Positions 32,896-54,651 of a DNA stretch of 64,000 nucleotides are shown piece after piece. The position numbers were made by a program, and so were the translations under genes. The notes beneath the pieces were generated by a model, which saw only the letters and a list, made by a program, of their open reading frames with translations, did not search any database and was not told the origin of the DNA. The DNA is from Lucinisca nassula (taxonomy: Eukaryota; Mollusca; Bivalvia; Lucinida; Lucinidae), in assembly GCA_963580285.1 (NCBI GenBank), contig OY757026.1, positions 68,077,396-68,141,395 on the forward strand. The letters are read 5' to 3'. The stretch's first letter is position 1. Every line of letters begins with the position of its first letter.

Positions 32896-33009
32896 TAGGC
32901 AAACAATAGGTTTAAACCATTTTCAAGCAGACATAACCAGCATAACCAGACGATATTTTCAGATGCAGTTTTTCGCTGTGTTCTCAGATGCAGTTTTTCT
33001 TTGTGTCTT

Positions 33010-33130
33010 AAGGGTAAATATTGTTATTTAATGCACTGGCGACAAGTTGGCGTCATAAGGGTAAATATTCTTTATTTCAAGTATTGGCGACAAGTTGTCG
33101 TCATAAGGGTTAATATTCTGTTATTTCAAG
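33010..33130. repeat. 48 bp tandem repeat at the 3' end of the S51 gene
   Basis: About two and a half units containing GGCGACAAGTTG and GTCATAAGGGTAAATATTC, with a 48-base offset between matching positions. The S51 stop codon lies in one unit and the candidate poly(A) signal in the next. Confidence 0.75.
33071..33076 (-). promoter_or_regulatory. Candidate poly(A) signal of the S51 gene
   Basis: AATAAA on the minus strand lies about 34 bases beyond the stop codon. The position fits a poly(A) signal. It lies within a 48 bp tandem repeat and could be coincidental. Confidence 0.4.
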
Positions 33131-33562
33131 ATACATATTCTTGTAAGAAATCAGATCACGGTGGAAAGACTTTCTTCGTTCTACCCAACCTTCTGTGTCA
33201 TGACCAGCCCGAGACATTGTCACTTGAAATGTTGGATGTGATTTGTATGAAACCCCATATGCTGTTCGGTCTATTCGTGCATCGTACAAACTTGCCGCTA
33301 GTCGTACAAATTCAGGTTTACGCCCAGAACTCAGGCTCCCACCTCCAAATATATCACTCGTTGTCAAGACATGTTCATACAGTTCATGGCCTTTCATTGG
33401 AATTTTGGAAACAGCAAACTTGACCGATCTGTCATACAAGTTAATGATGTCTCCGTGTGTTAGGTATGTCATGAATATGTCACGTGATGTAAAGTATGAT
33501 TGTAGAGTATCCTCACTAGATTTGGACAGGTCGAAGAATGTCACGCCAGCAGATCCAAGCAC
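33110..33562 (-). CDS. S51 gene terminal exon
   Basis: Acceptor is TGTTTTACAG ending at 33563. Phase 0 joins AAG to GTG. It encodes residues 295-444, starting VLGSAGVTFFDLS and later TYLTHGDIINLYDRS, GGGSLSSGRKPEF and SHPTFQVTMSR. The last residues and the TAA at 33110-33112 run into a 48 bp tandem repeat, so the exact C-terminus is less certain than the rest; a donor before the stop cannot be excluded. Confidence 0.78.
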   Translation of the reverse strand: MLGSAGVTFFDLSKSSEDTLQSYFTSRDIFMTYLTHGDIINLYDRSVKFAVSKIPMKGHELYEHVLTTSDIFGGGSLSSGRKPEFVRLAASLYDARIDRTAYGVSYKSHPTFQVTMSRAGHDTEGWVERRKSFHRDLISYKNMYLEITEY

Positions 33563-36500
33563 CTGTAAAACATTTAATAAAATACAAAATTGTATAAATC
33601 TTTGAAGCCACGACTGAATCGGCCGGAAGTCGTGTTCAAACAGCAAAATCCATGTTCACATATTCAAATTACACGCTGTTTGAAAATGGAGTTTGAACTT
33701 TTCATGCTTTGTTTACGTTACATTCAGCGGCGTAATATTATCGCCCTAAACGTAGCTTTATAGAATTTTATGATGACGTTAATCACTGCGTGACGGGCGT
33801 TATTGTGAACAATATTCTGAACTAGCCGCCATGTTGGCTTGCCGGTCGCATTTGAAGAATTTAAATGGAGTTAATATGGGCCTTTTAGGACATTTATATA
33901 TCACAAAACAATTTATTGTTGGAAACGTAAGTTATGCAAGAATAACGATCATCCATGCCTGTTTCATTTCATCAACAATTACCAGGTCCCTCTGACTCGG
34001 CCTTGCGGCGTCGTGTTCACAACTATCCTTGGGAACCGGCTTACGTTGATGCATGATTCGTTTGTTTGATTTGAGGTTTTGCGTCCCGTCAACACTGTAA
34101 AGGTCATTTTGGAGACGTTGCTTCCAATTTTGCGGGAGGTTTACCCGACATAGAGATGAAATGACATCGCAAGCCCTGCCGCCCAATGAAACCAATAAGT
34201 TTATAAACATGGACGGGCCGACTCGCACCGCTTTGCCTGGGCAGGCTTAGATCCTCTCAGCTGTTTACAAGTACTCGTGTGCGAGTCGGTTTCAGGTCTG
34301 CGTGGAAGCATCATGCAGCCCATATATTTCTTCAAAACCCGATGGGCGGGGTCTAATCATGAACATTACTTCTCCTAAACTACTTTGAACGTACTTATTA
34401 GACTCGCTTCGACGAGGCGATTCTAATGTGTAAATACAAAACACCTTCATTAACGAGAGAGGATTTTTGCCTCCTACAGAGTAGAGTCGGCAAATTGTAG
34501 AACCAATTGATGTCCTCCAGTGCTTGTACGTGTTTGCGCATGTCATAGATAAATCTGTGAGAATTGTCAAGGATTGGGGTATACTGCAAATAAATCTTTT
34601 AGTTTTTAGCTCCACAGGCCGAAGGCAAGCGGGATTTATGTTAAGGCCCTGTGTTTGTCGTACGTCCGGTTGTTAACTTTTACTTTAAACATCTTCTCCT
34701 AAACTACTTTGATGATTGAAACCAAATTTCACAGGTATGTTCCTTACATAGTCCTCTTCTAAATATCTTCAAAGATTTTTGTTACATGCAAAACTCTGGT
34801 TGCTATGGCAACAACCCCCACCCACAAAGAAATCTTCAAAAATATTCTCCTTCAAAACCGCTCAATAAATTTCATTCATATTTTGCATGAATGTTCGATC
34901 GGTGGACCGCCACGACCATGCCCTTGGTTCATTAGCTTCCACTGAATTGTAAAGGAAAAAACATCAACAATCTTTTCTGAAATAATAAGGCCCAAAGCTA
35001 AGATATTTTGTATGTAACTACCTTAAGTTGTCATCTACATAAATCCTGCAAACTATGCTTCTGGGGTCCAAATTGGCCATGTCCGGCGCTTATTAGCTCC
35101 GATAGACTTATCCTCGTGCGGCATCGTATGGCATGTATATTTCGCAGTTAATTCGATTTGCCAGGGTGTCTTGTCATGTAACTGACTGCAACACTCGTGA
35201 TAAATTGTGAAATGCTTAAGCCCTTTATCAGGCTTATCGGTATCATAAACTACGCAAAACATTTTCAAAATTTTATAAACGCCATTCAGATTTAACTTCA
35301 AAATTCAATGTTTGACTGAAATCTCTTCTACAGCAAGGTCTATCGGAACCCAAATTTTATGGTGACTTAGTATTAAAAATGCAGAACAAGAGGACCAAGA
35401 TGGCCCTGGATCATCTTGGCCCTGGATCGCTCACCTGATCCATAGAGTATCAAGTGGGCCCCAGGGAGGGCCAGTATTGACCCAAGGGCTATAATGTGTA
35501 TAATGTTGAGGGAGGTCTAAAAAGGTGAAGCTTCATACCAAATATCAACAAAGGCTATAATTTGAACAATCTTGACAAAGGTCCACAAGATGAAGCTACA
35601 CACCAAATATCAAAGACCTGGGCCTTGCAGTTTCAGAGAAGAAGATTTTTATGCCCCCGCCATTCGAAGAATGGTGGAAAGGGCATATAGCGTTGCCCTT
35701 GTCCGTCCGTCCGTCCGTCCGTCCGTTCGTACGTCCGTCCGTGCGTCCGAAACTTAAACGCAGTCAATAACTTCCTTATTTCTTGATGGATTTTAAAATT
35801 ACTCAGCAGAAATGTTAACCATCATGAGATGACGTGTCACGTGCAAAACTCAGGTCCGTACCTCCAAGGTCAAGAAGGGTCCGAAACTTAAACGCAGTCA
35901 ATAACTTTCTTATTTCTGGATGGATTTTGAAATTACTTTGTAGAAATGTTAACCATCATGAGACGATGTATCATGTGCAAACCCAGATCCGTACCTCCAA
36001 GGTCAAGGTCATACTTAGAGGTTAAAGGTCAAAAAAAGGGTCCGAAACTTAAACGCAGTCAATAACTTACTTATTTCTGGATGGATTTTAAAATTACTTT
36101 GAAGAAATATTAACCATCATGAGACGATGTGTCACATGCAAACCCAGATCCGTACCTCCAAGGTCAAGGTCATACTTAGAGGTCAAAGGTAAAAAAAATG
36201 GTCCAAAACTTAAACGCAGTCAATAACTTTCTTATCTCTGGATGGATTTTGAAATTATTTGGCAGAAATGTTGGCCATCATGAGACAATCTGCCTCACAC
36301 AAAACCAACGTCCTTACCTGCAAGGTCAAGGTCATACTTAGAGGTGAAACGTGAAAAAAGGGTCCAAAACTGAAACACGGTTAATAACTTTCTATGGATG
36401 AATACGAACATAGACATATTTTCAGGCGTGGGCATCCGTGTCCTATGGACGCTTTTCTAGTTTTAAAGATATTCCCTACATAAGCCTATGTAAAACCAAA

Positions 36501-39500
36501 TGTCCCCGGGGCGGGTGCATTTTTGGCCTCAGGGCTATAATTTAAACAATCATAATAGAGGTCCACTAGATCCAGCTTCACATCAAATATCAACGACCTG
36601 GGTCATGCTGTTTCAGAGAAGAAGATTTTCAAAGCCTATCTCTGTAAGTCTATGTTAAACCAAAGGGCCCTGGGGCGGGGGCATCTGTGGTCCGAGGGCT
36701 ATAATTTGCACATTCTTGGTAGAGGTCCATACCAAATATCAAAGACACGGGCCTTGCAGTTTCATATAAGAAGATTGTTTTTAAGATATTCCCTATGGCA
36801 GTCTATGTAAAACAAAAGGGTCTCGGGGCAGGGGCATTTTTGACCCCAGGGCTATAATTTGAACAATCTAGATAGATATCCACTAGATGAACTTTCACAC
36901 CAATCATCAAAGGCCTAGGCCTTGTGGTTTCACAGAAGAACAGTTTTAAAGATTTTCCCAATATAAGTCTATGTAAAACCAAAGAGCCTCGAGGCGACGG
37001 CATTTTGGGTCTCAGGGCTGGCTATAATTTGAACAATCTTGGTAGAGGTCCACAAGATGAAGCTTCATACCTAATATCAAAGACCTGGGCCTTGCGGTTT
37101 CAGTGAAGAAGATTTTTATAGCTTTTCCCTATATAAGTCTATGTAAAACCAAAGGGCCACGGGGTGGGGGCATTTTTGGTCTCAGGGCTGTAATTTGAAT
37201 ATTCGTGGTAGAGGTCCACAAGATGAAGCGTCATACCAAATATCACAGACCTAGGCCTTGTGGTTTTAGAGGAGATGATTTTTCAAGATTTCCCAATATA
37301 AGGCTTTGTAAAACCAAAGGGCCCTAAAGCGGGGGCTTTTTTTGGCCCCAGGGCTATAATTTTAACAATCTTGGTAGAGGTCCACAAGATGAAGCGTCAT
37401 ACCAAATAGCAAAGACCTGGGCCTTGTGGTTTAAGAGAAGATATTTAAAGATTTTCCCTATATAAGCCAATGTAAAACCAAAGGGACCCGGGGCGGGGGC
37501 ATTTTTGGCCCCAGCACTATAATTTGAACAATCTTGGTAGGGGTCCACCAGATAAAGCTTCATACCAAATAGCAAAGACCTGGGCCATGCGGTTTCAGAT
37601 AATGAGATTTTTAAAGATTTTCCCTATATAAGCCCATGTAAAACCAAAGGGCCCCAGGGCGGGGGCATTTTTGGCCCCAGCACTATAATTTGAACAATCT
37701 TGGTAGCGGTCCACTAGATCAAGCTTCATACAAAATATCAAAGACCTGGGCTTTGCCGTTTCAGAGGAGAAGAATTTAAAAAAAAAATCCCTATATAAGC
37801 CCATGTAAAACCAAAGAGCCCTGGGGCGGGGGCATTTTTTGGCCCCAGCACTATAATTTGAACAATCTTGGTAGGGGTCCACCAGATAAAGCTTCATACC
37901 AAATAGCAAAGACCTGGGCCATGCGGTTTCAGAGAATGAGATTTTCCCTATAAAAGCCCATGTAAAACCAAAGGGCCCCAGGGCGGGGGCATTTTTGGCC
38001 CCAGCACTATAATTTGAACAATCTTGGTAGGGGTCCACTAGATAAAGCTTCATACCAAATAGCAAAGACCTGGGCCATGCGGTTTAGAGAAAAAGATTTT
38101 GAAAGATTTTCCCCATATAAGCTTCTGTAAAACCAAAGGGCCCATAACTTCACATAATTGTTCAAACGGTAAAAATATTACAGTATACACTTTTTTTCCG
38201 TAAATTCTCTCCGTAAGCCTGGCAAATTTCATTTAACATGGGCGCCCCCAGTCTTTGATTTCGTTCGGTTCGTTGCGAATAATTTGATTGGATGCGATGA
38301 CACTTGCCCGCATCCAATGAAATAGTGCAGCGGTATGGTCTATTTACAAATGAGCCGTAGGCCCAGGGTGCGTAAGGAACGTAGTGAACTAAGTACCCTT
38401 TGTTTGCAAACATCATGATCCAAACTGGACCGACGCAGTCATAAAAACGTACTGGATACGGGCCTGTGAATAGTCCCCCATATCCACAGCAGCTTGAAAT
38501 TTGGTCTGAAATGCATATCAAAATAGCACTGATCGACTACCCCTTTTAGACGAGCCTTCGGCTTTCCTCATTGGATAGTCTATTAGCGCCTCATGTTCGA
38601 CATTTTGAACTGTATTTCGTACTGAACTTCAACTCCTGTGTCCATAACTGACAAACAGTCAGCGCACAACCGGATTGAACGGCTTTTTTCGGTTTAAAAG
38701 TAGACAGTGTATATATAGCTCTACCTTTAAAATGCTGCTTAAAATTCAAGTTAATTTTTAAGCTTTCTTACAAAACATGTTGCGAGCCGTGGCCCATCGG
38801 GGCTTTGATAAATAGGCTGGCTGCATGGTGCTTCCGCGCAGAGCTGAAACCGACTGAACTTGAGTACTATTAAAGGTCCATGCCTGCCCAGGCAAAGTGG
38901 TGCGAGTCGGACCGTTCGTTACATCCTGGCGTTATCTTTGGGTGGTAGGGCTTGAGATGTCAGTCGTTTCATCTCAACGGCGGTTAAAAGTCCAAAATGA
39001 CATAACAGTGTTGACGTGGACGTAAACTATCAAGTCCAACAAACAGACTCTCACAGCCGTGTCTGTGCTATTTGTAACGGTGTGTTTATACATGTAGGTA
39101 ATGAAGGCATTCAATGCATCCTCACAAATTCAATTACAAAATTTGTGCCGGCATACCCCAGTTTTACTATATAAAAGTGGGGTTCGAGGGGGTCAGAATT
39201 ATATAGGCGTGTTTTCGTGATGTAATTACCTTGGCGCTTGTTTGGTTGGTATCGCTGTGTGTTATAACCAAAGCAGTGTCTTCGTCCACACCAAACCCAT
39301 AAGGCGTTCCTTTGGTTAGATTCTTTGTATCAGACAGAAGGCGAATCATTCTACCCTCTCGGCCACGCTGGCTAACATATAGGAAAACTAAATCTATTGC
39401 ATATGTTATTAATTGATTATCCTATATTACACAAGGTCAACCAATATTCAAAAATCAAAAATCATGTTTTTAATTGCACCAATTAATAAAATTGTTATTA

Positions 39501-42500: not shown

Positions 42501-45500
42501 ATAGGGTTTATTAGCATGGACGGTCCGCCTCGCACCGCGGTTCCTGGACAGGCTTAGATCCTCTAAGCGGTTTACCAGTACTAGTGTGCGGGCCGGATTC
42601 AGCTCTGCGTGGAAGCATCATGCAGCCCATATATTTTTTCAAGCCCCTATGAGTGGGTTTAACTCGGGACTCCCAATCTCATCACGAAAAAACACCTATA
42701 TAACCCCCCCCCTTGAACCTCACTTTTATATAGTAAAACTGGGGTAAACGTTATTTTCCTTATTTCTGCTCTAAAATATAGATTGTGGGTATTCGTTAGA
42801 ACCGCCTCGATGTTGCGGTTCTAATGAGTACCCACAATCTATATACAAGAAAAATATCACTTTTTTTTTTTTTTTTTTTTTTTTTGGCATCTGAAAATTG
42901 TCAATTTTTTCGGCCGTAAAGTTTACAATGTATTTGTATAAGCGTTTTTTTTTTTTTTTTTTTTTCATTATGAATGATCTACAGTTCTTGAGACGCATGT
43001 GTTCCAGCTCTTGACGTAAAAAATGAGTCGGAGACACTTGGTGCTGGGTAACCTCCTTGGCTTACTTTATACACCCAGTCAAACTAGGAGACATTGCGAA
43101 AACACGCCTATTCAAATACATTGTACATATTACCGGCGAAGAAACAAAAAGTTTCAGTTGAAAAATTGTGATATATTTCTTACTTCTGCTCAAAATATAG
43201 ATTTTGGGTACACGTTAGAATCGCCTCGATGAGGCGGTTCTAACGAGTACCCACAATCTATACTTTAGAGCAGAAATGAGAAAAATAAGCTTTACCCCTG
43301 TAAAACTCCAGTTTTATTATATAAAAGTTGGGTTTAAGGGGGTAAAAATTATATAGGCTTGTTTTCGTGATGGAAACACTTCGAATTATGTGCTCTGTGA
43401 ACATACCACGATGACGTCATCGATAGCGCGCTAAGATGAGTACAGCGGTCAGGCATCGAATGCCAGGGCGTGCCACAGTGTTTCGGTTAGACATCATATC
43501 GGCCGTGGTCAACAGTGCAGAGAACCATGAAACCGATTGTATGAACTTTGTCCTTTCCGCGGAATCTGGCTACAAAGAACTGTTGAAAGCAGGTCAAATG
43601 ACCCATCAGGTAACAAACGTTAAATCATCGTTAAAAGAGCCGTTATTTCAAGGTTGCGTCAACGTTTTATGCCTGTATGGTCGAGAGAAACAATATCGAC
43701 GTAGGCAGAGGTTTCCCAACAACACACAAGGATAATGGGCGGGAGTCTAAAGAGACATTTAAGCTTGCTCGTGGCTCGAATAATATTAAGTAAAGCTTAA
43801 TTTCCCTGGTCACATCACGTTAACAAGTCCGTGATATAAACACCCATGTAAACCCCACTTTATACGGAGAAAACTGGGGTTTACAGGGATATATATTCAT
43901 CATAATGTGGGTTATACTTCCTAGTCCTTTGCGATAACTGATTTCACTGCGGAATTTAGGAAATATTTGAGGGTCATTGGTGAGGTCTAACTGGTTTGGC
44001 CCAGCAAAATCTTTTTCCATACTTTTCAGTTCTCTGCTGTAGTCCTTGCTTCGAAAGGGTTGCCCCTTTTTCAGAGAATTATTTTGTTATTTCAACACCA
44101 AGACAAAAAGATTGTGGATACCCAGTGGGGCGGTTCCAACGAGCAAAACCTATGTTTGGAGTATAAATAAGAAAAAAAACATCGCACATTTCATACCAAT
44201 GGAGGTACATGTATGAAAGTAGTTACCTAAAATGAGAGTCCAGAATATAGTTTTTCACAAAGCCCAGTCCGCCTTGTTCAGCATACACAACATATTCCAG
44301 TCCACCAACAGAGGGCTCTGTTGGAGAAGAGCCATACTTCAAAGCTTCATAACTAGTTCCTGCTGAATCAATAGTATCAAAACGTCAGCAAACCATTACG
44401 CAAACACGCCTATACAAATACATTGCCACTTTTATCGCCGTAAAATGAAAATTTAAAGAAGAAAAATTGTGATATTTTTCTTATTTCTGCTCAAAATATA
44501 GATTGCGGGCACTCGTTAGAACCGCCTCATCGGTTTATATTTTAGAGTAGAAATAAGGAAAATAAGGTATACCCCCCGGAAACCCCAGTTTTACTATATA
44601 AAAGTGGGGTTCAAGGGGGTCAAAATTATATAGGCGTGTTTTCGTGATGATAAGCGTAGCGCCCGTCACGCGTGTTCACAATGTAAAATTACAATTAAAA
44701 GAACCCCGTTTTTGGGCTGCCGGCCTCGGAAGCTCATTCGGATGCGCATCTTACTGGTGATTAATAGTTCGTGGGTTCGATACCTTCCAGAATCGGCAGC
44801 ATTCTTACGTGAAGATTGATCATAAAAGCCTTACGATCATTCTCTCCCTTCCGTTAATTCAAGAAGGGCAGATGTCTGTTTCTGGAGAAAGAATGTGCAT
44901 TGTACCGGTCAACCACTTGTGTATAAGCCTGCCCAGGCCCCGAGGTTATAAAACTTTTTTCATGCTCAACTCACTTGAGCATGAAATTTGTTGCAGGACA
45001 AATAAGAATCTCTGTTATCTGAGATGATGCTTCCACGCAGAGCTGAAACCGGCCCGCACACTAGTACCGGTAGACCGCTTAGAGGATCTAAGCCTGTCCA
45101 GGAACCGCGGTGCGAGGCGGACCGTCCATGCTAATAAACCCTATTGGTTTCATTGGGCGACAGGGCTTGAGATGTCATTTCATCTCAATGTCGGGTAAAA
45201 GTCCCACAAAATTGGAAGCAACGTCTCCAAAATGACCTATACATTGTTGACGGGGACGTAAAACCTCAAATCAAACAAACAAAATCTGAGAAAGAAAAAC
45301 GCTCAACTGATTGGTGTTTAAATTTTTATGAGCACCACAAATTCCATGCGCACGAAAAAAGCTTTATAACATTTGGCCCAGGTGTGGTTAGGTAAACTAG
45401 CCGGCTTGATATGACCTCAACAGTGTTGACTGGGACGTTAAACTCCTAAACAAACAAACACAGCATTGGGCTTATCTTAAATGAGAGACGCTTAATTCTT

Positions 45501-48500
45501 TTTAAAGCATGCATGAAATAATATATTTGTAATAAGGACGATTACCCTACTTGATGTAAATCGAGATGTCTAGTGAGCGTTATACCAGTGTCATTACCGT
45601 TGCTCCCCCCCCCCCCCCCCTCCCCCGATCCCCAGCCAAGCAGCAGCATAGCATATCATTTGTTATACATGTATTGATATTCATTCTAGTAATATTCTCT
45701 AAATCCATGTTAGTAACAACTGCTAAATCATGTGTGTACACATATATAGTGATGCTTCAGTCAGAGTACCCAATGGGAAACAGATTACACAAGTCTTATG
45801 ACTTTCTTCTGAATCCCATTTTGTATATACATGTATTTCTGTGGGGTGGGTGTGGTATTATTTGGTCTGCGATCGAAAGTCACTTTTAATAGATAAATCT
45901 GAGTTATGCTGCCAAATGCGACGGGGATATCTTTGACCTCACATATTGTTTGTATGTATGTTTGTTTGTACTGGAGTTTAACGGCTCAGTCAACACTATT
46001 TAGGTCATTTTGAGCCGTTCGGTTACCTATCCACACGTTTCCTGGGCATGCAGGCTTATACGTAAGCGGTTAACCAGTAGTACAGTTCACATTCTGTCGC
46101 CAGAAATGACCCCGCAAATAACATTTGTTTGAATTGAGGTTTAAAATCCACGACAATACTATTTAGGCTATTTTGGAGACGTTGCTTCTGTGGGATTTTA
46201 CCCGACATTGGGATGAAATGACATCCTAAGCCCTGCCGCCCAATGAAACCAAAATGGAATACTCGCACCATTTTGCTTGGACAGGCTTAGACTTTCGGAA
46301 TTTTACTGCATGTTCTACTTTCCTTATTGCACCCAAAGAAACATTTAATTTAATTGCTCGGATGTTCAGACTGATCTGAGTCTTCGCTGGGAGCACATGT
46401 TCAAAGATATGTTTTCGCGTGACGTGGCAAGATGCCAGATCATTTCCCATACGAACAAATAAGGTGGGTATTTCGTGATAACTGAAGGATGTTTTCCTTA
46501 TTTCTCCATATAAACCTATGTTGTGGGTATTCATTGGAACCGCCTCACTGAGGCGGTTCTAGTGAATACCTACAACATATTTTTTTTTGTTTGTTTGTTT
46601 TTGTTTTTTTTATATAAAGAATTGACAAAAACTTTTCCCCAGTTATCACAAAATACCAACCTTATCTGTTCCTATGATTAATTTATTTGAATGGGGTGCT
46701 TATCCTTTATTCGATGCGCAGTCGCTGCCATCTTTTATGGGTGTGCGGGGTGGATCGAAAAAATCCGTCCCAAGGGTCACCGTCCGGCATCACGAGGCTT
46801 GCCGAGTGATGCCGGACAGTGATCCCGAGGGACGGATTTTTCTATCCACCCCTCACACCCATATAGGATTATTTTTCTTGCATAGGCCTACTTTCCATTT
46901 TCTTAGCGCGGATTTTAATGCTGCAATCACTTCGGTTACTGACGTCCGCCATATTGTGATTGCACTAAAGGAATATTTAGTGACGTCACGTAACGTGCTG
47001 TGACGTCAACCTCAAGAACACCAAGTTAAGATCAGAATTTCTATCCTACGAAAAAGATATGGATTTCCTTGTCTGGTGTGTCGGTCCCCGCCCATAGGGG
47101 CTTGAAGAAATATATGGGCTGCATGATGCTTCCACGCAGAGCTGAATCTGGCCCGCACACTAGTACTGGTAAACCGCTTAGAGGATCTAAGCCTGTCCAG
47201 GAACCGCGGTGCGAGGCGGAGCGTCCATGCTGATAAACCCTATTGGTTTCATTGGGCGACAGGGCTTGAGATGTCATTTCATCTCAATGTCGGGTAAAAG
47301 TCCCACAAAATTGGAAGCAACGTCTCCAAAATGACCTTTACAGTGTTGACGGGGACGTTAAACCCCAAATCAAACAAACAAACAAATTGTCTGGTGTGCA
47401 AGAAATGTAGATGACGGCATGGGTCTGGCGTTACAAGTGGCTGCGCAGTAAGTACTGAGATTACTGGTGTGTCGATTGTTTTGAAGTTTTAATCCGGCTG
47501 CATTACGAGTAAACAGACCTTCAGGCATGCTCCACCGGGGATTCATTAGATCAGCTTGCGCATCCACCCAGTCCGATCGGAGCCATCACGGATTGTAAAA
47601 TAGTCGTGAATTGCGACTTAAACTGTTTCATTTAGCCCTTAAACTCAAGTGTTTAAAGCCTGATCAGACGCCGCACAACGTGGCGTCTGATCTTGATCTA
47701 CACAGTTTGCCAACCCATAATACCAGCTAGATTCTCTAGATAACCTTCTTACATGTACGCATAGCCGTCGCCTGGATTTCCTACAAATTAGTGATAGCCA
47801 CGTGGACTTTAGCTCTTATAACATCATATGTTTAGCAACTTTGGGTCGATTGATAAATAATCGACCTAAAAAGAACACAGATCAAATAAAACTACAGGCC
47901 CTTATTTCCTGTGTGCTTACATCTCATCATGTAGTTAGCAGTTTGACAGGTACAGCCGGCGCTGGTCCCGGCTATGACAGCCCCATGGTTGTGCATGGCA
48001 TGAAGCGCCTGGAGGGCGGGCGTGTACGCTCCCGAGGGCATGGACAGAAATCTGGAACAAAAATGAAGATCTGGGCGTAGCCTTTTGGAAACAAGGACCA
48101 CCTTAAAGACGAAAATAAAAGACTCTTTATAAGTTAAATTTATTTATTTATTTACGCCCCGCCCATCGGGGCTTGAAGAAATAGATTGGGCTGCATGGTG
48201 CTTCCACACAGAGCTTAAACTGGCCGCACATGAATACTGGTAAAACCGCTTTGGGGTCTAAGCCTGCCTAGGCAAAGCGGTTGGAGTCGGCCCGTCCCTA
48301 CATATTAACCATTTTGGTTTGTTTGGGCGGCAGGGAATGTCGGGTAAAAGTCCCTTAAAACTGGAAGCAACGCCTCCAAAATGACCTGAATAGTGTTGAC
48401 GGTGACATAAAACCTCAATTTAAACATAAACAAATTTATTTATTCATTTATTGTAGAATTTCATGACAGGGATGCATATATATGTCTCCAGCAAATACAG

Positions 48501-48790
48501 TAAAATTCCTATATTAAGGGGAATGGGAACACCTGGCAGATTTTTCCGCCTTTTTTCTAAGGGAGATAACTTTTGGGACTTCCTGTACGCTTTTCTATAA
48601 GTTGTGTCCCACGGAAAAAGGGGTCAACTCTTAAAGGAAAGAATTTGCTGCTCTGCAGCAAATTCTTTCCTTTAAGAGTTGACCCCTATTGACATGGGAG
48701 ACAAAAATATTTTTGCAGGAGTAACCTCCCCTGAAGGTGTTCCCATTCCCCTTAAGACCTTTTTGGGGATTGTTCAGGTAGACAACACAG

Positions 48791-48881
<91 letters not shown>

Positions 48882-51800
48882 TCGGGTTTAACGTCGCTTT
48901 CAACAATTTTTCAGTCATATCACGACGGTGTCTGGTTGCGACAGGGAGCTCAATGCTCACGTTTATAGTGCTGCCTCACTGAAGTATCATGTCCCAGACA
49001 CATTATATGATACCACACCCAGTCACATTATCCTGACACTGGATCGACCAGTCCTAGCTCTACCCTGTAAATCTGAGTGCCAAGCGAGGAGCAGCTAGTA
49101 CCATTTTTAACGACTTTGGTATGTCGCGGCCCGGGATCGAACCCGAGACCTCCCGTTCCCCGGAGCGGACACTCTACCAACTGAGCTATCGGGGCCGGTC
49201 CGACAACACAGGGAAAATGTACCTGAAACCTTCTAAATATGGTTTTATAAGCATAATTTGTCTTAATTTTAGGTGTTCTTATTAGCCGGATTTCACTGTA
49301 TACATGGACATACAAATGTAAAAGGATTGGATTTAGGCTCAGCCTATATTTATCCTCTCTTTGATAGCTCTGTAGACATACATGGTTGGTGTAGCTATAT
49401 AGACCTTTTTCTAGTTATCAAGGAGAATTAACCAGGAAGAAGAAGAACACACCTATATAAATTTGACCCCCTTGAACCCCACTTTTATATAGTAAAACTG
49501 GGGTTTATAGGGGTAAACTTCATTTTTCTTATTTCTGCTCTAAAATATAGATTGTGGTACTCGTTAGAACCGCCTCGATGAGGCGTTTCTAACGAGTACC
49601 CGCAATCTATATTTTGAGCAGTAATGTCTGTCTTCATCGGCTCATAAGATATTCTGTATTAACACGGGTCAGAGGGGCCCCGAAGATCTGGTCAACAGTT
49701 TGCCAATAAGTCCAAAGTTATATATACAGAAGCGCTTATACTGCTTATGCCCACGTGACTGTAATTGAACACGCCCAGAAAAAAAGATAAACAGAGCGGA
49801 ATGGAAACAAAGGAAAAACATGCACCGGATTTGTTTATTGAATCTGTTAACCTATAAGGTCTCGGGTTCCGAAGTGAGGCATTCAAAAAACAGTAGACCC
49901 AAATCAGACACCACAGAACGCAGCGTCTGATCAGAGTCTACCCTGTGGGAACACACGGCGGATTTTTGCGCCGTTTTTTAAAGGGAGCTACTTTCGGGAC
50001 TTCATGTTCCCTTTTCTATAAACTGTCCCGCGGTAAACGGGGCATCTCTTTAAGGCAAGAATTTGCTCCTAAGGAGCAAATTCTATTCTTTATGAGTTGA
50101 CCCCTATTGACGCAGGAGACAAACCTACTTTAGCTGGAGTTGCCTCCTCTCAAAGTGTATCCATTCCCCTCAAGTACAGGAATTCAAGGGTATTAGTCTA
50201 GGTTCAGGACATTTTTTGCAAGCCTACACTAAGATACAATACGCAAACCAATGCTGTCAGAGCTTTGATTTTCATAAACGAATGGAACACATTTTCTTGC
50301 ACACCAGATAAGGAAATCCATAGTTATAGCTTGAGACAGAAATTCTGTTCTAACCCTGGAGTTCTTACACAAACTCGAATATGCTCGCGTGTTTGATAAA
50401 TGCACTGGTTGAATACGACCTCATATGCGCCGTCGTTAAGGTTGACGTCACAGCACGTAACGTGACGTCACTAAAAATTCCTATAGTGTCATCACAATAT
50501 GGCGGAAGTGACTGCAGCATGAAAAATCTGCGCTAAAAGATGGAAGGTATGCAAGAAAAAGAATCCTTTAAGTGACTGCAGCATGAAAAATCCGCGTTAA
50601 GAAATGGACGGTATGCAAGAAAAAGAATCCTATATGGGTGTGAGGGGCGGATAGAAAAATCTGTCCTTCGGGATCACTGTCCGGCATCACTCGGCAAGCC
50701 TCGTGATGCCGACAGTGACCCTTGGGAAGGATTTTTCCATCCACGCCTTACACCCATATAAAATTCATATATTCTATACTCACGATTGTATAATCCGGTA
50801 CTGGTCCCCACCGCCAAAGAAAAATCCAGTTTGTTGATACATCATCCTTACTACGCTGTCATTGTGGCTGTTGGCAGTGTGGTTGAGGTCTATAGGAATT
50901 TGATTAGCTTCCTTTGCACCGTAGCGTAGGAATATGTTTTTGTAGAACTGGTAGCCTCCTAACGGATCTGCAGAAGCGGCATTGATAATGCCTATTTTGG
51001 CAACTCCACGACCTCCCTTGATAAAAAATGACATAAATGTAATCCAGAGGACCCATGGCCCTGAACCGCTCACTTGAGTGCTGAGTGTATATGGAGCCAT
51101 TTTGGTTTCTGAGAGGAAGCATTTTAAAGGGGTTTTACCTTTTACTATGGCGTCCACCGTTGTCATGCTTGAACAAACTTTCTTGCATCTAACCCATAAA
51201 AGGCTTAAATTTACCCAGTTTTTTTTTTTTTTTTAAACAAAACATGTTTTGATATCTGAGTGACTCTGGGATATGGTTAGTGACTAACCATGACCATTGG
51301 TACACATGCAGTTTCATTAACGCGTTTAGAAGCCTCCGTGGTGCAGTGGGTAAGCTACTCGCCTTGAAAGCCAGGGGTTGTAGGTTCGATCCCGGGCTTC
51401 TCCAGACTTTCGGATGAGTCTTTAAACCGAGGCCCCGTCTCCGTATGACTTTAGCTGTTGGTGAGACGTAAAACTCGAACACTCACTACTGCAGTTGCGT
51501 CTTGACCTTGAAAATAATTTCTGAAGCTAAAATAAACTATTTATTTGCAGATTTTCATACAGAATGTAAAGCGCCTTGAGAAACTTTTATTCGAGCACCC
51601 ATGTTGTTTCTTAGGTCTTTGTGGCGCGGTGACGTCAGAAACTTTGCACTCGTTATACTACGTGTGTGCGCTATGGCGCTAATGTCGTTTTAACATGCCA
51701 TACTGTCTGCTGTCTTTTTCGCTGCAATTTACTAAATTATTGCAAAACACCTTGATTGTTTTGTATTGCGGTATAAACTAAATACATGGTCAGTGTCTTT

Positions 51801-54651
51801 AACCCATTTTAGACTGGAAACCCCTAAACGGGTACCGTGTCAATCAGACGCCGCAGAACGTGGCGTCTGATTAGGGCCTACACGGTTTGCAAAAAAGTCA
51901 TTCATTTTCCAAATGAATTTTTATGAAAACACGACCTGTCACCCCTAAGTTTTGAAACGGACTCCTGCTGTATATAAGGAGGAAGATTCCAGTTGGTATA
52001 AAAGGATAAATAATAAAATATAATCGGGTCGCCGCGACAATTTTACAGGGGCTCGCTAAAGCTGGCCACGATAAAATTGTCTAAGGCTCACCTATTATAT
52101 TTTATTATTAAAGACACTTACCATGTATTTACTATATTATTATTTTTTTCTTATTTTACGGTCCTTTCAAGATTATTTCACTCATATCAAGCCGATCGTC
52201 AATCAGAGGTTGGCGAATACCGGTGTACCCGGAAAATAACCACCTGACCGTACTTTGAAGAACTTGGGATCTCACATGTGATCCGGGCTAGGTTCGAACC
52301 CACAGCGGTGTGAGACCTAATGATTAAGAGGCAGCGCTCTACATCACGTAAGTAAGACCATGGAATGAAGATCCCCTTTACCCCCACTTTATATGGAGAA
52401 AACTGGGGTTTACGGGGATATACTTATTTTTGCTCCAAGACATCGGTTGTGGGTACTCGTTGGAACCGCCTCGTGGCGGTTCTAACGAGCACCCACAACC
52501 TATGTTTGCAATATTTATAAGAACAATATCACGGATTTTCAAACAAAAACGGCCATTTTGGGGATGAGAAAAAAATGCACTATGTCGCACGGGTGGGTTG
52601 TCGTAATGACTCCATCAGGCCACGAAGGCCCGCAGTCACCCCTGTTATGCTTCCTGACTGGGCACTATGATTAACCCACAGTGGCTGGGACTACCCCTGC
52701 CTAGAAAATCTTTTCATGATCCCAAAGGTGGTTGAGCCATGGAAGTTCGACTGAACCTCGAACTTTCTTTCCCCGTTAACACCGCTTTTATCCATCTAGA
52801 AAAAAAAAACTGCATTTATTCAGCCAGTAGCGTAATATGGCTCAACTATGTTGCTTAGCTCTTTCGATCTGCGTTGCTGATTATTCGCCCCTGGAGAAAA
52901 AGATTGGGCTGCACGGTGCTTCCGCACAGAACTGAATCTGACCGCGCATTTGAGTAATGGTAAACCGCTTAGGTCTAAGCCTGCCCAGGAAAGTGGTGAG
53001 AGTTGGGCCGTCCCTAAATTTCTTTCGGCGATAAGGTTTGAGGTGTCGTTTTATCTTGCGGTCGAAAGAAAGACTCACAAAATCAAAGCGACGTCTTCAA
53101 AATGACCTAAATAGTGTTTGCGGGGATGTAAAAGCTGAACACAAACAAAAAGTTACTGACCCCGGAAATAAACTTTTGAAGTGAAGGCAATGATCAGGAA
53201 TCGATACAATTAACTCACACCTCCCATTCAAGGCACAATATGGAAAGAAGTACAAAAACAAAACAATTTCACCACAATGAAAACACCACAAGCGTAAAGC
53301 CAAGCGGACTGTTACTTAAGAAATAGATCAGCTCTCACTGTGATTTGTTGAGTAATAAATCACAGTTTGGAGGTCAGTTGTAAAGTAGACAAATCACGAG
53401 CGCGTAGCGCGCGTGATTTGTCTACTTACAACTGACCGACAAACTGTGATTTATTACCCAACAAATCACTGGCTAGAGCTGACCTATTTCGATTCTAACA
53501 CGCTGAAAATCGGCAATAATGTTGTTGTTTCCTTCAAAATCTCACAACTTTTCGCCATTGTTAGAAGAAATCCCGCTAAAATTATCGACTGAAACACATG
53601 CATTTATATTCTTTTCTAACGTTTTCGATGCGAGAAAATGACGTTACACCGTCTAACGTCAAGTAAATCGACTAGTGACGTCATAAATTTGCAGTTTTTA
53701 ATGACGTCACACGTCACGCTCTTCCAAGCTGTAATTTGTTGCAGAATAAAACACAGTTATTTTCAATTGCCTATATAGGCGCGCTGTGTTAGAATTTCCA
53801 ACAAAATGGCAAAACGGCTATCCAAAATAAACAGATATAAGCAATACATACATGCAAAGATGAACTATAACAATAATTGGCCACAACAGAAGAACCGCAT
53901 TGGAACTGGTCAGTATTTTTTACTGGACGCGGGTGGGCTTGAAGCTTCAATCCTCGCCCATGGCTCTGTCGTGGTTAAAACAAATAATTTGTTTAGTTCA
54001 CAAGAAGGCTGTCTATCTCATCAGTTCAACATGCTGGTGCCTATTCTTGTTGACAGGGTGATAAGTCAAGAACAATTTTCAGGATTGCAGCGGTGTTACA
54101 TATCTGTACCGGTCTACACGGTTGAAAAGATTGCTACAATGTACAACAAAATTCATATATCAAGACCACTTTTGGGACTGTTCAAAAGTGGTCTTTAAGA
54201 CCACTTTTGTACAGTCCCAAAGGTGGTCTCTTATTATGAGACATTATATGAGACATTATTATGAGACATTAGGTGTAGGAAACACAAACAAAGAATAACC
54301 GAAACCTTCTCAACCTTTTTAAAAGCGGATTTAGTCTTAATTTCAGGTGGTTTTAATAGCGGAATTTTACTGTATAAGCCTTCGACATGGGGTATAGTCT
54401 CCTGCACTTACAGCCAATTCAATTATTGTATTGTAGATCTCCGAATTGTTGTCTTGTAAATTTCCTCCAACCAGTACCATACTTTTCCCATATGTTGTAA
54501 ACTGTGGTAACGGTGATAACGTAATCCCATCAAGAATAAACGCGTTTGTAACAGCTATAACATGCAGGAAAGTTAAGCTATTAATGCTACGCCACAAGAC
54601 CGTTACGATTCCGTAAATATCCATCTGTATTAGTATAACGAATTTGGACAT
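33110..54651 (-). CDS. Peptidase S51 / cyanophycinase-like protein, six coding exons
   Basis: Joined exons: 54651-54412, 51016-50784, 48051-47921, 44362-44227, 39371-39230, 33562-33110. Phases 0, 2, 1, 2, 0 match at every junction, giving 444 residues and one stop. S51 members hydrolyse peptide or beta-aspartyl bonds with a Ser-His-Glu triad. Visible here: VGGN near residue 62; a GGRG..KIGIINAAS strand at 81-95; GGGDQYR at 148-154; GTSAG with nucleophile Ser188; GGLGF at 232-236; DSHFSQRGREGR with His245; GFGVDEDTAL with Glu277; then about 150 C-terminal residues. Bacterial cyanophycinases are near 270 residues, so this is longer at both ends. Sequons at N68, N125, N132, N264 and N289 and a hydrophobic N-terminus suggest secretion. 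Family assignment is strong; substrate is unknown. The start is uncertain (ATG at 54651 or 54624, or an upstream exon). Introns of 2.7-5.7 kb are filled with mobile DNA. Confidence 0.85.
33831..33926 (+). other. Candidate first exon with YY1-like start and strong donor
   Basis: GCCGCCATGTTGGC matches the YY1 motif and gives a good start context. 32 codons (MLACRSHLKNLNG.., LLGHLYITKQFIVGN) end exactly at GTAAGT (33927). Upstream 33770-33800 has TGATGACGTT and GCGTGACGG. No second exon was identified, and it lies antisense in an S51 intron. Confidence 0.25.
34055..34352 (-). mobile_element. Dispersed repeat family B copy
   Basis: TTTGATTTGAGGTTTTGCG to CCCGATGGGCGGGG. Confidence 0.85.
34599..35105 (+). 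mobile_element. Diverged 165 bp-unit element, 5' part
   Basis: Begins TTTTTAGCTCCACAGGCCGA like the element at 2138, with ACATCTTCTCCTAAACTACT and diverged units (CAAAGCTAAGATATTTTG). Cut at 35105 by R1. Confidence 0.65.
35106..35385 (+). mobile_element. R1 coding fragment
   Basis: Homologous in reverse to 31680-31800 and 11830-11700: AATTCGATTTGCCAGG, AAACTACGCAAAACATTTTC, GAAATCTCTTCTACAGCAAG. Frame broken. Confidence 0.65.
35386..38150 (-). mobile_element. 165 bp tandem-unit element, reverse orientation
   Basis: Starts AACAAGAGGACCAAGATGGC and GATCGCTCACCTGATC, the reverse complement of the end at 4665-4712. Then about twelve units with CAATCTTGGTAGAGGTCCAC and AAAGACCTGGGCCTTG. Interrupted by another element at 35649-36470. 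It lies in an S51 intron; the frames on it are repeat by-products. Confidence 0.85.
35649..36470. mobile_element. Nested element with 165-170 bp GTCCGAAACTTAAACGC units
   Basis: Starts TATGCCCCCGCCATTCGAAG, then (GTCC)n at 35700-35750. About four units follow with AAACTTAAACGCAGTCAATA and CTCCAAGGTCAAGGTCATAC, ending GGACGCTTTTCTAGTTTT. The host 165 bp array continues on both sides. Confidence 0.8.
38151..38786. other. Unassigned; 119-codon minus-strand frame
   Basis: A minus frame at 38162-38521 has CCGYGGLFTGPYPVRFYDC and WAYGSFVNRPYRC. Cys-rich and unusually long for an intron, but no family is recognised, and codon phase does not extend the S51 gene. May be an unrecognised repeat. Confidence 0.3.
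38787..39048 (+). mobile_element. Dispersed repeat family B copy
   Basis: GCCCATCGGGGCTTTG head and a diverged tail GACGTAAACTATCAAG. Confidence 0.75.
39148..39222. mobile_element. Half MITE-H1 next to a splice donor
   Basis: CCCCAGTTTTACTATATAAA to GGCGTGTTTTCGTGATG, the right third of MITE-H1 without the hairpin. It ends seven bases from the S51 donor at 39229. Confidence 0.8.
39230..39371 (-). CDS. S51 gene exon with catalytic glutamate
   Basis: Completes a Ser codon and covers residues 248-294. Acceptor is TGTTAG; donor is GTAATT starting at 39229, phase 0. It begins QRGREGRMIRLLSDTK, matching the arginine-rich segment after the catalytic His, and contains GFGVDEDTALVITH, where Glu277 is the expected third triad member. 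Sequons at N264 and N289. A half MITE ends at 39222, leaving seven bases between the donor and the repeat. Confidence 0.88.
39493..39632. repeat. 140 bp palindrome
   Basis: TGTTATTAATCAA and GTATTGGCC arms return as TTGATTAATAACA; apex GCCTCGGCCTTCGGCCTCG. Confidence 0.85.
39633..40227. other. Mostly unassigned; partial hairpin at 39780-39835
   Basis: TTTGTTAGAACCGCCTCTGC and GAGATTCTAACAAATATCC form a diverged hairpin-core copy. Otherwise nothing seen. Confidence 0.5.
40228..40510. mobile_element. Hairpin-core MITE-H2
   Basis: ATTACGATAACACGCAC start, GTTAACGTGATG end. The hairpin at about 40336-40402 has GGTTGTGGGTGCTCGTTAG on the left arm. Confidence 0.85.
40764..40833. repeat. Hairpin-core variant with altered apex
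   Basis: Outer arms TGTGGGTACTCGTTAG and CTAACGAGTGCCC; the inner arms are extended by GCATCAGGA against TCCTGATGC. Confidence 0.8.
40990..41430. mobile_element. Foldback MITE-F, split by a SINE
   Basis: TATTGAATTTATCAAACGAG and GAGGAAAAGGGATAAA pair with CTTTTCCTCAACGAGTTTAA and AATAAATTCAATA. The right arm is interrupted by SINE-C at 41129-41390. The intact copy is at 41688. Confidence 0.8.
41129..41390 (-). mobile_element. tRNA-headed SINE (SINE-C) with 13 bp target duplication
   Basis: Minus reads GGCCTCCGTGGCCTAGTGG, AAGAGCGCTGACTC and GGTTCGAGCCTCG (B-box), ending in an A-rich tail (poly-T on plus). CAACGAGTTTAAT is duplicated at 41116-41128 and 41391-41403. Confidence 0.92.
41452..41681 (+). 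mobile_element. SINE-C, second copy, opposite orientation
   Basis: GGCCTCCGTGGCCTAGTGG head, GTAGGTTCGAGCCTCG B-box, AGGGCCGTAAAACCAAAACC then poly-A. TATTGTTGG is duplicated at 41443-41451 and 41682-41690. Confidence 0.9.
41688..41852. mobile_element. Foldback MITE-F, uninterrupted copy
   Basis: GCTCGTTACATGGAGGATC, then arms TATTGAATTTATTAAACGAG / CTCAACGAGTTTAATAAATT around GTGAGGCTGTGCCGAGC. Confidence 0.85.
41853..42360. other. Mostly unassigned; half MITE-H3 at 42158-42235
   Basis: ATAAGGTTGGTATTTTGTG to CCTTATTTCCCCAC matches the left end of the copy at 46459; no hairpin remains. Confidence 0.55.
42361..42658 (-). mobile_element. Dispersed repeat family B, full copy
   Basis: TTGTTTGATTTGAGGTTTAA to TTTTTCAAGCCCCTATGAG. 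Confidence 0.85.
42680..42972. mobile_element. Hairpin-core MITE-H1
   Basis: CATCACGAAAAAACACC start, TTTCATTATG end with the TIR replaced by poly-T. Hairpin at 42770-42843. Poly-T runs at 42859-42886 and 42946-42965. Confidence 0.75.
43092..43372. mobile_element. Hairpin-core MITE-H1, complete
   Basis: CATTGCGAAAACACGCC start, GCTTGTTTTCGTGATG end, hairpin at 43187-43266. 281 bp, opposite orientation to the 5004 copy. Confidence 0.85.
43373..43812. other. Unassigned; plus frame 43436-43735
   Basis: ATGAGTACAGCGGTC opens a 99-codon frame preceded by GATGACGTCATCGATAGCGC. No family recognised and no splice or repeat support. It lies antisense in an S51 intron. Confidence 0.25.
43813..44200. 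mobile_element. Degenerate hairpin-core MITE-H2
   Basis: CATCACGTTAACAAGTCCG start, GAAAACTGGGGTTTACAGGG, then one broken hairpin arm (TTGTGGATACCC). It contains about 150 bases of extra sequence. It ends beside the S51 exon at 44227. Confidence 0.6.
44227..44362 (-). CDS. S51 gene exon with catalytic histidine
   Basis: Covers residues 203-246 plus split codons at both ends. The acceptor ending ATTCAG puts CA first, which completes TCA. Donor is GTAACT starting at 44226. It encodes GTSYEALKYG, GGLEYVVYAEQGGLGF and NYILDSHF. His245 aligns with the DQHF histidine of cyanophycinase, but Gln is Ser here. MITEs lie on both sides: one starts at 44394, 32 bases upstream of the acceptor, and another ends near 44200. 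Confidence 0.87.
44394..44649. mobile_element. MITE-H1 with collapsed hairpin
   Basis: CATTACGCAAACACGCC start, GGCGTGTTTTCGTGATG end. Only the left hairpin arm (GGCACTCGTTAGAACCGCC) survives. Its end lies 32 bases from the S51 acceptor. Confidence 0.85.
44714..44800 (+). mobile_element. tRNA-like SINE head
   Basis: GCATCTTACTGGTG precedes GTGGGTTCGATACC (B-box). Only one copy in the window. Confidence 0.4.
44855..44945. repeat. Fragment of the GTTAACCGC repeat family
   Basis: AAGAAGGGCAGATGTCTG and TATAAGCCTGCCCAGG match 19.0-19.2 kb. Confidence 0.55.
45025..45292 (+). mobile_element. Dispersed repeat family B copy
   Basis: GATGCTTCCACGCAGAGCTG to CAAATCAAACAAACAAA. Confidence 0.85.
45293..45949. 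other. Unassigned; poly-C at 45605-45626
   Basis: 45400-45465 has a GACGTTAAACTCCTAAAC tail fragment. Nothing else recognised. Confidence 0.4.
45950..46110. repeat. GTTTAACGG repeat copy
   Basis: GGAGTTTAACGGCTCAGTC, TCATTTTGAGCCG and AGCGGTTAACCAGTAGTAC, as at 19.0 kb. Confidence 0.75.
46120..46290 (-). mobile_element. Family B fragment
   Basis: GAATTGAGGTTTAAAATCC to ATTTTGCTTGGACAGGC. Confidence 0.7.
46459..46665. mobile_element. Hairpin-core MITE-H3, complete
   Basis: ATAAGGTGGGTATTTCGTG start and CACAAAATACCAACCTTAT end: different inverted ends from H1 and H2. It holds the same hairpin core (46518-46576), with GTATTCATTGGAACC on one arm and matching changes on the other. Confidence 0.88.
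46735..47070. repeat. Family E palindrome and flank, second copy
   Basis: Palindrome 46735-46870 with apex CGAGGCTTGCCGAG at 46793-46806; the flank has GTGACGTCACGTAACGTGC. Confidence 0.88.
47084..47388 (+). mobile_element. Dispersed repeat family B, full copy
   Basis: CCCCGCCCATAGGGGCTTG to CAAATCAAACAAACAAA. Confidence 0.88.
47645..47712. repeat. Palindrome, GATCAGAC family
   Basis: CTGATCAGACGCCGC against GTGGCGTCTGATCTTGATC. Confidence 0.75.
47760..47880. repeat. Repeat shared with 4.84-4.98 kb
   Basis: CGCCTGGATTTCCTACAAAT and GGGTCGATTGATAAATAATC. Lies just beyond the S51 donor at 47920. Confidence 0.5.
47921..48051 (-). CDS. S51 gene exon with GTSAG catalytic serine
   Basis: Covers residues 158-201. 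Acceptor is TTGTTCCAG; its first base completes the split Ser codon. Donor is GTAAGC starting at 47920, phase 1. It encodes SGAYTPALQALHAM then GAVIAGTSAGCTCQT. Ser188 in GTSAG is the nucleophile elbow of family S51. The longer frame on the opposite strand (47802-48080) is a shadow of this exon. Confidence 0.88.
48155..48435 (+). mobile_element. Dispersed repeat family B copy
   Basis: CGCCCCGCCCATCGGGGC to CATAAAACCTCAATTTAAAC. Confidence 0.85.
48518..48751. mobile_element. TTAA-target foldback MITE-B
   Basis: TTAA at 48514-48517 and 48752-48755. Inverted ends GGGGAATGGGAACACCT / AGGTGTTCCCATTCCCC. The central palindrome has AGGAAAGAATTTGCTGC arms. Confidence 0.92.
48794..49201 (-). mobile_element. 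tRNA-headed SINE (SINE-D) with (CA)n tail
   Basis: Minus starts GGCCCCGATAGCTCAGTTGG (A-box), TCTCGGGTTCGATCCCGG (B-box), then a body ending CGTTAAACCCGAATTC, then about 47 CA units (plus-strand GT, 48797-48878). GACAACACAGGGA is duplicated exactly at 48781-48793 and 49202-49214. Confidence 0.95.
49444..49627. mobile_element. MITE-H1, truncated on the right
   Basis: AACACACCTATATAAATTTG to the hairpin at 49543-49622; the right third is missing. Confidence 0.8.
49888..49948. repeat. Palindrome, GATCAGAC family
   Basis: AGTAGACCCAAATCAGACAC against GCGTCTGATCAGAGTCTAC. Confidence 0.7.
49949..50176. mobile_element. MITE-B, diverged copy
   Basis: GGGAACACACGGCGG start, CCATTCCCCTCAAG end; the centre AAGAATTTGCTCC / GGAGCAAATTCTATTC is palindromic. 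Confidence 0.75.
50286..50766. repeat. Family E copy, reverse, with palindrome
   Basis: TTCTTGCACACCAGATAAGG, GCACGTAACGTGACGTCAC, then a 68 bp tandem duplication (50505-50640). The palindrome is 50624-50766 with apex CTCGGCAAGCCTCG at 50690-50703. Confidence 0.85.
50784..51016 (-). CDS. S51 gene exon with GGGDQ motif
   Basis: Covers residues 81-157 plus two bases of a split Ser codon. Acceptor is TTTTTATCAAG at 51017-51027; donor is GTGAGT starting at 50783, phase 2. It carries GGRGVAKIGIINAAS and FFFGGGDQYRIIQ. The Gln after GGGD (residue 152) matches the conserved active-site glutamine of cyanophycinase. Sequons are at N125 and N132. A long hairpin repeat ends at about 50766, some 17 bases from the donor. 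Confidence 0.88.
51328..51490 (+). mobile_element. SINE-A copy, best preserved
   Basis: AGAAGCCTCCGTGGTGCAG head, GTAGGTTCGATCCCGG B-box, GTTGGTGAGACGTAAAACTC tail. No clear target duplication seen. Confidence 0.88.
51491..52149. other. Mostly unassigned
   Basis: Apart from the 51828 palindrome, only an AT-rich dyad (52006-52020 / 52094-52110, AATAATAAAATATAAT) is seen. Confidence 0.4.
51828..51892. repeat. Palindrome, GATCAGAC family
   Basis: ACCGTGTCAATCAGACGCCG against CGTCTGATTAGGGCCTACAC. Confidence 0.7.
52150..52632 (-). mobile_element. SINE-C split by MITE-H2
   Basis: 52150-52341 and 52609-52632 are adjacent parts of SINE-C (AGGTTCGAACCCACAG B-box region; CAGGCCACGAAGGCCCG head). 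Confidence 0.75.
52342..52608. mobile_element. Hairpin-core MITE-H2 inside SINE-C
   Basis: CATCACGTAAG start, GTTGTCGTAATG end; hairpin at 52440-52506 with shortened apex GCCTCGTGGCGG. Confidence 0.85.
52633..52883. other. No recognised feature
   Basis: No repeat match or supported frame seen. Confidence 0.3.
52884..53150 (+). mobile_element. Dispersed repeat family B copy, diverged
   Basis: CACGGTGCTTCCGCACAG to GATGTAAAAGCTGAACAC. Confidence 0.7.
53175..53320 (-). mobile_element. R1 tail fragment
   Basis: GAAGGCAATGATCAGGAATC to CAAGCGGACTGTTACTT. Confidence 0.7.
53321..53491. repeat. 171 bp palindrome
   Basis: GTGATTTGTTGAGTAATAAA, CAGTTTGGAGGTCAGTTG and AGTAGACAAATCACG each return in reverse complement. 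The centre is GAGCGCGTAGCGCGC. Splits an R1 tail. Confidence 0.92.
53760..54120 (-). mobile_element. R1 tail, degenerate
   Basis: AAAATGGCAAAACGGCTATC, AGAAGAACCGCATTGGAAC and TCATCAGTTCAACATGC follow the tail order. The 130-codon frame here is a by-product. Confidence 0.65.
54160..54374. mobile_element. MITE-T copy beside an S51 exon
   Basis: Palindrome GTTCAAAAGTGGTCTTTAAG at 54180-54212; ends GCGGAATTTTACTGTA, 37 bases from the donor at 54411. Confidence 0.82.
54412..54651 (-). CDS. S51 gene, first recognised coding exon
   Basis: Encodes residues 1-80, including GKSMVLVGGN, the first strand of the S51 fold. The 3' boundary is the perfect donor GTAAGT starting at 54411, phase 0. If translation starts at ATG 54651 or 54624, the leader ends LTFLHVIAVTNA, a plausible signal peptide. 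A strong acceptor also sits inside the frame: branch-like CTTAAC, pyrimidines, then TTATAG ending at 54555. The true exon may therefore be 54412-54554 (143 bp, incoming phase 1), with the start in an upstream exon. An MITE ends at 54374, only 37 bases from the donor. Confidence 0.75.

Follow-up and report, generated by a model that had tools for sequence, protein, structure and literature searches.

Characterised counterparts of the gene considered here, an S51 hydrolase gene of the lucinid bivalve Lucinisca nassula, are two bacterial cyanophycinases: the intracellular CphB of Synechocystis PCC 6803 (PDB 3en0, 7uqw) and the extracellular CphE of Pseudomonas anguilliseptica BI (CPHE_PSEAG). The Lucinisca gene lies in a 64,000-nucleotide stretch of contig OY757026.1 (assembly GCA_963580285.1; G000:C20:68077396-68141395), hereafter the window, where six exons on the minus strand, from 54651 to 33110, encode a 444-residue product. 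The product aligns with CphE over 367 columns (41% identity, E 5e-79), sharing its catalytic triad, its Gln/Asp/Arg/Arg/Arg pocket and, putatively, a leader peptide. The match continues beyond the catalytic core into the C-terminal region, an extension encoded by exon 6 and absent from the 276-291 residue chains of CphB, although the local alignment stops at CphE residue 380 of 417. Unlike CphE, the window gene is an animal gene with five introns, and its product carries Ser244 for Thr and GREGR for GRQGR. Animal cyanophycinase-like proteins (from Mya, Magallana, Haliotis, Daphnia, Branchiostoma, Petromyzon and others) have the same architecture and mostly the same residues, Lucinisca adding a further species to the set; some of these relatives are changed at pocket or catalytic positions. 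Judged from sequence, assignment to the cyanophycinase class of S51 serine exo-hydrolases is well supported. With moderate confidence, the gene can further be read as an intact bivalve gene for a secreted animal cyanophycinase of the extracellular (CphE) type that would release beta-Asp-Arg from eaten cyanobacteria.

All six exons that the initial annotation had joined in phase are present. Their lengths (240+233+131+136+142+453 bases, stop included) give 444 residues in a single frame that stays open through every junction, and the five introns are all GT-AG. The predicted junctions were placed by homology and splice sites. The features are listed below, each exon with its tblastn match to a homologue from the bivalve Mactra (P0001).

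Exon 1, 54412..54651, minus strand: start codon, hydrophobic leader and first S51 strand SMVLVGGN; donor GTAAGTGC; E 3e-13.
Exon 2, 50784..51016, minus strand: central S51 fold and GGGDQ (148-152); acceptor ATCAAG, donor GTGAGTAT; 53 of 78 residues identical, E 1e-30.
Exon 3, 47921..48051, minus strand: nucleophile elbow GTSAG with Ser188; 29 of 42 residues identical, E 2e-12.
Exon 4, 44227..44362, minus strand: SGTSYEALKYG ... GGLGF to DSHF (Asp243, Ser244, His245); 24 of 45 residues identical, E 3e-8.
Exon 5, 39230..39371, minus strand: Arg249, Arg251, Arg254 and VDED with catalytic Glu277; 33 of 48 residues identical, E 5e-18.
Exon 6, 33110..33562, minus strand: end of the S51 core, C-terminal beta-rich domain common to extracellular CphE, and stop codon; 75 of 149 residues identical, E 7e-47.
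AATAAA polyadenylation signal, 33071..33076, minus strand: begins 34 bases beyond the last base of the stop codon.

The Mactra homologue matches the six exons separately, in collinear order and all on the minus strand. As controls, tblastn with the reversed Mactra protein gives a single match (E 0.89), and with a shuffled version no match. On either side of the five junctions the residues line up in register with those of Mactra, Mya and Magallana, apart from a brief loop gap that follows junction 2. A chance joining of exons is ruled out by the open frame, the GT-AG introns and the exon-by-exon matches set against these controls.

Profile searches bear out the description of the gene as a cyanophycinase-like S51 hydrolase. 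The product scores 37 bits against Pfam Peptidase_S51 (PF03575; gathering score 23.9) over residues 64-288, and 129.6 against the NCBI cyanophycinase equivalog TIGR02069 (cut-off 126.6), on which the characterised CphE itself scores lower, at 128.0. The only PDB sequence relatives at E <= 0.001 are the cyanophycinases 3en0, 7uqw and 7uqv. The predicted fold of a clam homologue, 60% identical to the window protein, superposes on a solved cyanophycinase with high confidence, and exon 6 predicted alone reaches a predicted local distance difference test (pLDDT) score of 92.3.

The substrate pocket of CphB comprises Gln101, Asp172, Gln173, Arg178, Arg180 and Arg183 beside Ser132; the CphE counterparts are Gln136, Asp222, Thr223, Arg228, Arg230 and Arg233, with a Ser171/His224/Glu251 triad (PMC3235067). 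By alignment, the window protein carries Gln152, Asp243, Ser244, Arg249, Arg251 and Arg254, with a Ser188/His245/Glu277 triad. Ser188, the nucleophile of GTSAG, aligns with CphB Ser132, and we take His245 and Glu277 to be the counterparts of CphB His174 and Glu201. The landmarks read in the initial annotation (GGGDQ at 148-152, GTSAG with Ser188, DSHF with His245 and VDED with Glu277) all stand where it had placed them. The triad and five of the six published pocket residues are thus identical to those of CphE; the sixth, Ser244, occupies the position of CphB Gln173. A hydroxyl residue at that position, it has been proposed, may hydrogen-bond the catalytic His in CphE (PMC3235067).

Conservation was counted over 38 animal rows, comprising the window protein and, from the 40 named proteins, the 37 that remain once three shorter than 340 residues are set aside. 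Asp243, His245, Arg251, Arg254 and Glu277 are invariant; Gln152 and Ser188 are each kept in 36 rows and Arg249 in 33. Position 244 is T in 18 rows, S in 12, V in 4, A in 3 and Q in 1, and among the 182 other rows of the same alignment, which include unnamed sequences that may be animal, it is T in 143 and S in 24. The initial annotation had asked what the substrate might be. The retention of the published cyanophycin-pocket residues narrows that question and favours cyanophycin itself over another substrate.

A same-fold S51 hydrolase might instead have lost contact with cyanophycin and shifted to an animal substrate; examples would be peptides or proteins, isoaspartyl or rich in Asp/Arg, that occur in mucus, the shell matrix or immune secretions. 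Substrate positions drift in some lineages and position 244 varies among animals, which would suit such a shift, as would the presence of the gene in Solemya (chemosymbiotic) and Babylonia (a scavenger), neither an obvious eater of cyanobacteria. This shift is nonetheless unlikely for the window protein, which keeps every other named cyanophycin-binding residue and shares 41% identity with an enzyme proven to be a cyanophycinase; the Gln-to-hydroxyl change, moreover, is also found in CphE and in most other rows of the alignment.

Secretion, proposed in the initial annotation as probable, appears likely. Of the 40 named animal homologues, 32 were scored by a crude hydrophobicity rule and 31 pass it, Liolophura failing; CphE and the window protein also pass. 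Cleavage, judged by eye against the relatives, plausibly falls after VTNA at residue 37. The proposal is tempered by the untypical leader of the window protein, whose best hydrophobic stretch overlaps the likely cleavage site.

The proposed mechanism runs from secretion to salvage. The enzyme would lose its leader and be secreted by the digestive gland or the epithelium of the gut. With His245 and Glu277 activating it, Ser188 would attack the alpha-amide of the poly-aspartate backbone, with Gln152, Asp243, Arg249, Arg251 and Arg254 holding the beta-linked Asp-Arg unit. Beta-Asp-Arg dipeptides would thereby be released from cyanophycin freed from eaten cells, then taken up and presumably split by an isoaspartyl dipeptidase. 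No animal is known to make cyanophycin, and a cyanophycin synthetase (TIGR02068) was not detected in the genome by an exon-by-exon search that could miss a split gene; the polymer would therefore most likely derive from cyanobacteria and other bacteria that are eaten or live in the gut, giving the enzyme a role in digestion and in nitrogen and arginine salvage. For the Lucinisca enzyme itself, we infer expression, secretion, catalytic activity and a dietary role.

Animal members of the family are numerous. Three protein searches supplied the best 120 of 2002, 594 and 2067 matches, respectively. Among the matches listed, family members are mainly bacterial, yet at least 40 named animal proteins from at least 32 species occur, many already named cyanophycinase-like by NCBI. 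The molluscs comprise eleven bivalves, four gastropods and one chiton, and the crustaceans Daphnia (three), Artemia, Tigriopus (two, one of them read from its gene label and presumably of this genus), Hyalella and Petrolisthes. The remaining animals are the annelid Capitella, the echinoderm Amphiura, the hemichordates Glandiceps and Ptychodera, Branchiostoma (three) and Petromyzon. The Petromyzon marinus protein (P0129) is the only named vertebrate member among the matches listed. The nearest named relatives there are bivalves at 50-60% identity, with Mactra at 60%.

Trees containing bacterial and metazoan members, as the initial annotation had suggested, place the animal proteins apart from the bacterial ones. 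All are unrooted maximum-likelihood trees, and some rows are unnamed environmental sequences. In a first tree of the window protein and 101 of 214 proteins, the long branches of P0188 (Acidobacteria) and P0146 fell beside Hyalella and Petrolisthes among the animals. These two rows and 20 further ones, mostly near-duplicates, were left out of a second tree of 80 rows, and a third, of 76 rows, used a fresh choice of the window protein and 75 of 270 proteins. The animal rows lie on one side of a branch with support of 99/97 in the 80-row tree (41 rows on that side) and 97/90 in the 76-row tree (39 rows). In these two trees the window protein joins Mactra, Mya and Dreissena in a group of bivalves, supported at 100/98 and 100/99. 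A small group with the eukaryote row P0139 sits beside the animals in the 80-row tree (100/99) and on the bacterial side in the 76-row tree. Approximately unbiased (AU) tests, with groups named after the tree was seen, did not reject a grouping of molluscs with bacteria (p 0.294 and 0.277) or of crustaceans with bacteria (p 0.071). A single gain of the animal cyanophycinase before the bilaterian split is favoured by these trees, and the AU tests also allow separate origins.

The genome assembly bears on whether the gene is resident at all. A mainly bacterial family invites the explanation of bacterial contamination, or of a recent non-functional bacterial insert, and the initial annotation had argued against contamination from the introns. 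The assembly comprises 2.93 Gb in 696 contigs, and the gene sits at position 68 Mb of contig C20. The five spliceosomal introns, the position in a large contig and the nesting among bivalve homologues in a supported clade exclude bacterial contamination, and the 444-codon open frame likewise leaves the contaminant or dead-insert explanation next to no probability. A whole-genome protein search found, besides the six exons, a second copy of the last two.

Second copy (L010, L011), G000:C582:19900-20352 and 28747-28888: exons 5 and 6 with similar introns, on a 46-kb contig.

Across exons 5 and 6 the C582 copy differs from the window at 7 of 591 bases without gaps. In the adjacent intron sequence and downstream of the exons, 154 of 3033 aligned bases are mismatched and a further 178 positions are gapped, some of these gaps arising from arbitrary piece ends. 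The exons are therefore the better-kept part, which also speaks against a dead bacterial insert. The exon differences comprise 3 synonymous and 4 non-synonymous changes, for which a ratio of non-synonymous to synonymous rates (dN/dS) is uninformative. Exons 1-4 were found on C582 neither by the whole-genome protein search nor by tblastn on 34,156 of its 46,156 bases. C582 therefore more probably carries a partial copy, or is an unplaced contig bearing an allele, than holds a full functional paralogue.

The window gene is not the sole S51 gene of the genome. A second S51 locus (L001, G000:C19:125418427-125418732; GCSAG, 101 bits) resembles peptidase E / aspartyl dipeptidase, a different S51 group that is far less similar to the window protein than cyanophycinase is. 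A Pfam S51 profile search of the genome reported the C19 locus and not the window gene, presumably owing to its short split exons. Further along the C19 piece lies what we take, by eye, to be a piggyBac-like transposase frame.

The window also holds repetitive DNA. A 48-base tandem repeat (2.6 copies, 33005-33130) spans the stop codon, the start of the 3' untranslated region and the polyadenylation signal, and intron 5 contains, at 36462-38143, a large tandem array whose units measure about 166 bases or multiples of that length. Upstream of the gene, on the minus strand at 57645-58073, is a reverse transcriptase fragment (RVT_1, 61 bits) that looks by eye to be of non-LTR type, that is, lacking long terminal repeats.

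Published work touches animal cyanophycinases sparsely. A Pacific abalone transcript of 1804 bp named Cyanophycinase has 1.77, 1.23 and 12.55 reads per kilobase per million mapped reads (RPKM) in large, medium and small animals, respectively, and the name appears once in the article text, in an expression table (PMC4661900). Fungal cyanophycinase genes have been reported as transfers from bacteria (PMC3612039). In the text of a bacterial genome survey the stems eukaryot and metazoa are absent and animal occurs twice (PMC10206079); in the main text of a compendium of transfers into animals the stem cyanophycin is absent (PMC13342648). Among the papers listed by searches of titles and abstract openings, with most subscription journals outside their coverage, none describes a test of an animal cyanophycinase. 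Animal cyanophycinase-like genes are already in public databases and in the abalone table, and the Lucinisca gene is not a first. In mice fed cyanophycin alone, high amounts remained in the large intestine, and when cyanophycinase was given the polymer was broken down and dipeptides were absorbed (PMC5399006), which suggests that a grazer could gain from a cyanophycinase of its own. Sinanodonta, with at least three cyanophycinase-like copies among the matches listed, is reported to take up label from Microcystis (PMC5532668).

A non-digestive use of the same activity has also to be weighed, namely a secreted enzyme of defence against cyanophycin-containing or related bacteria, or one that remodels gut or gill microbiota. 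Secretion-type leaders would serve such a role, and the difference in abalone transcript between size groups at least shows regulation (PMC4661900). Nothing in the gene, however, points to defence. Because cyanophycin is an intracellular store, its hydrolysis outside cells would not kill bacteria, and a defensive role appears quite improbable.

Several observations weigh against reading the gene as that of an active dietary cyanophycinase. The TIGR02069 margin of the window protein is narrow (3 bits), and of nine other animal homologues only Magallana passes (131.4), the other eight scoring 102.8-124.2; with CphE itself at 128.0, the cut-off thus sits at the edge of the extracellular branch. 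Key residues are altered in some animal rows: Gln152 is replaced by Arg in Hyalella and by Pro in Mytilus (P0220, GGEP for GGDQ); Ser188 is Gly in Ptychodera (P0231, GTGAG for GTSAG) and falls in a gap in one Branchiostoma model; Arg249 is Lys in four Branchiostoma rows and Ser in Ptychodera; and one Batillaria model is broken directly after the catalytic Ser. Not every animal copy need therefore be active. The leader of the window protein is less typical than those of its relatives, with an Arg mid-leader and two possible start codons. The presence of the gene in Solemya and Babylonia fits poorly with a strict diet rule. A split cyanophycin synthetase gene could have escaped the exon-by-exon search of the genome. 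Finally, the mouse study saw no rise in plasma Asp and Arg (PMC5399006), so dipeptide release need not by itself feed an animal.

The altered homologues of Ptychodera flava and Mytilus trossulus are possibly inactive or re-purposed. More broadly, and only tentatively, Bilateria may have inherited a secreted cyanophycinase, probably once, before the protostome/deuterostome split, and kept it mainly in suspension feeders, deposit feeders and grazers, among them the lamprey, as an enzyme devoted to digesting the nitrogen store of cyanobacteria for food. The altered copies would then mark lineages losing or re-using the enzyme.

If the animal clade does hydrolyse cyanophycin, clams, Daphnia, lancelets and other filter feeders would own an enzyme for a nitrogen-rich polymer, a specific prediction that can be tested with one recombinant protein. 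Such an activity would bear on how cyanobacterial nitrogen reaches grazers, on feed for shellfish, and on the acquisition and retention of bacterial-type enzymes by animals.
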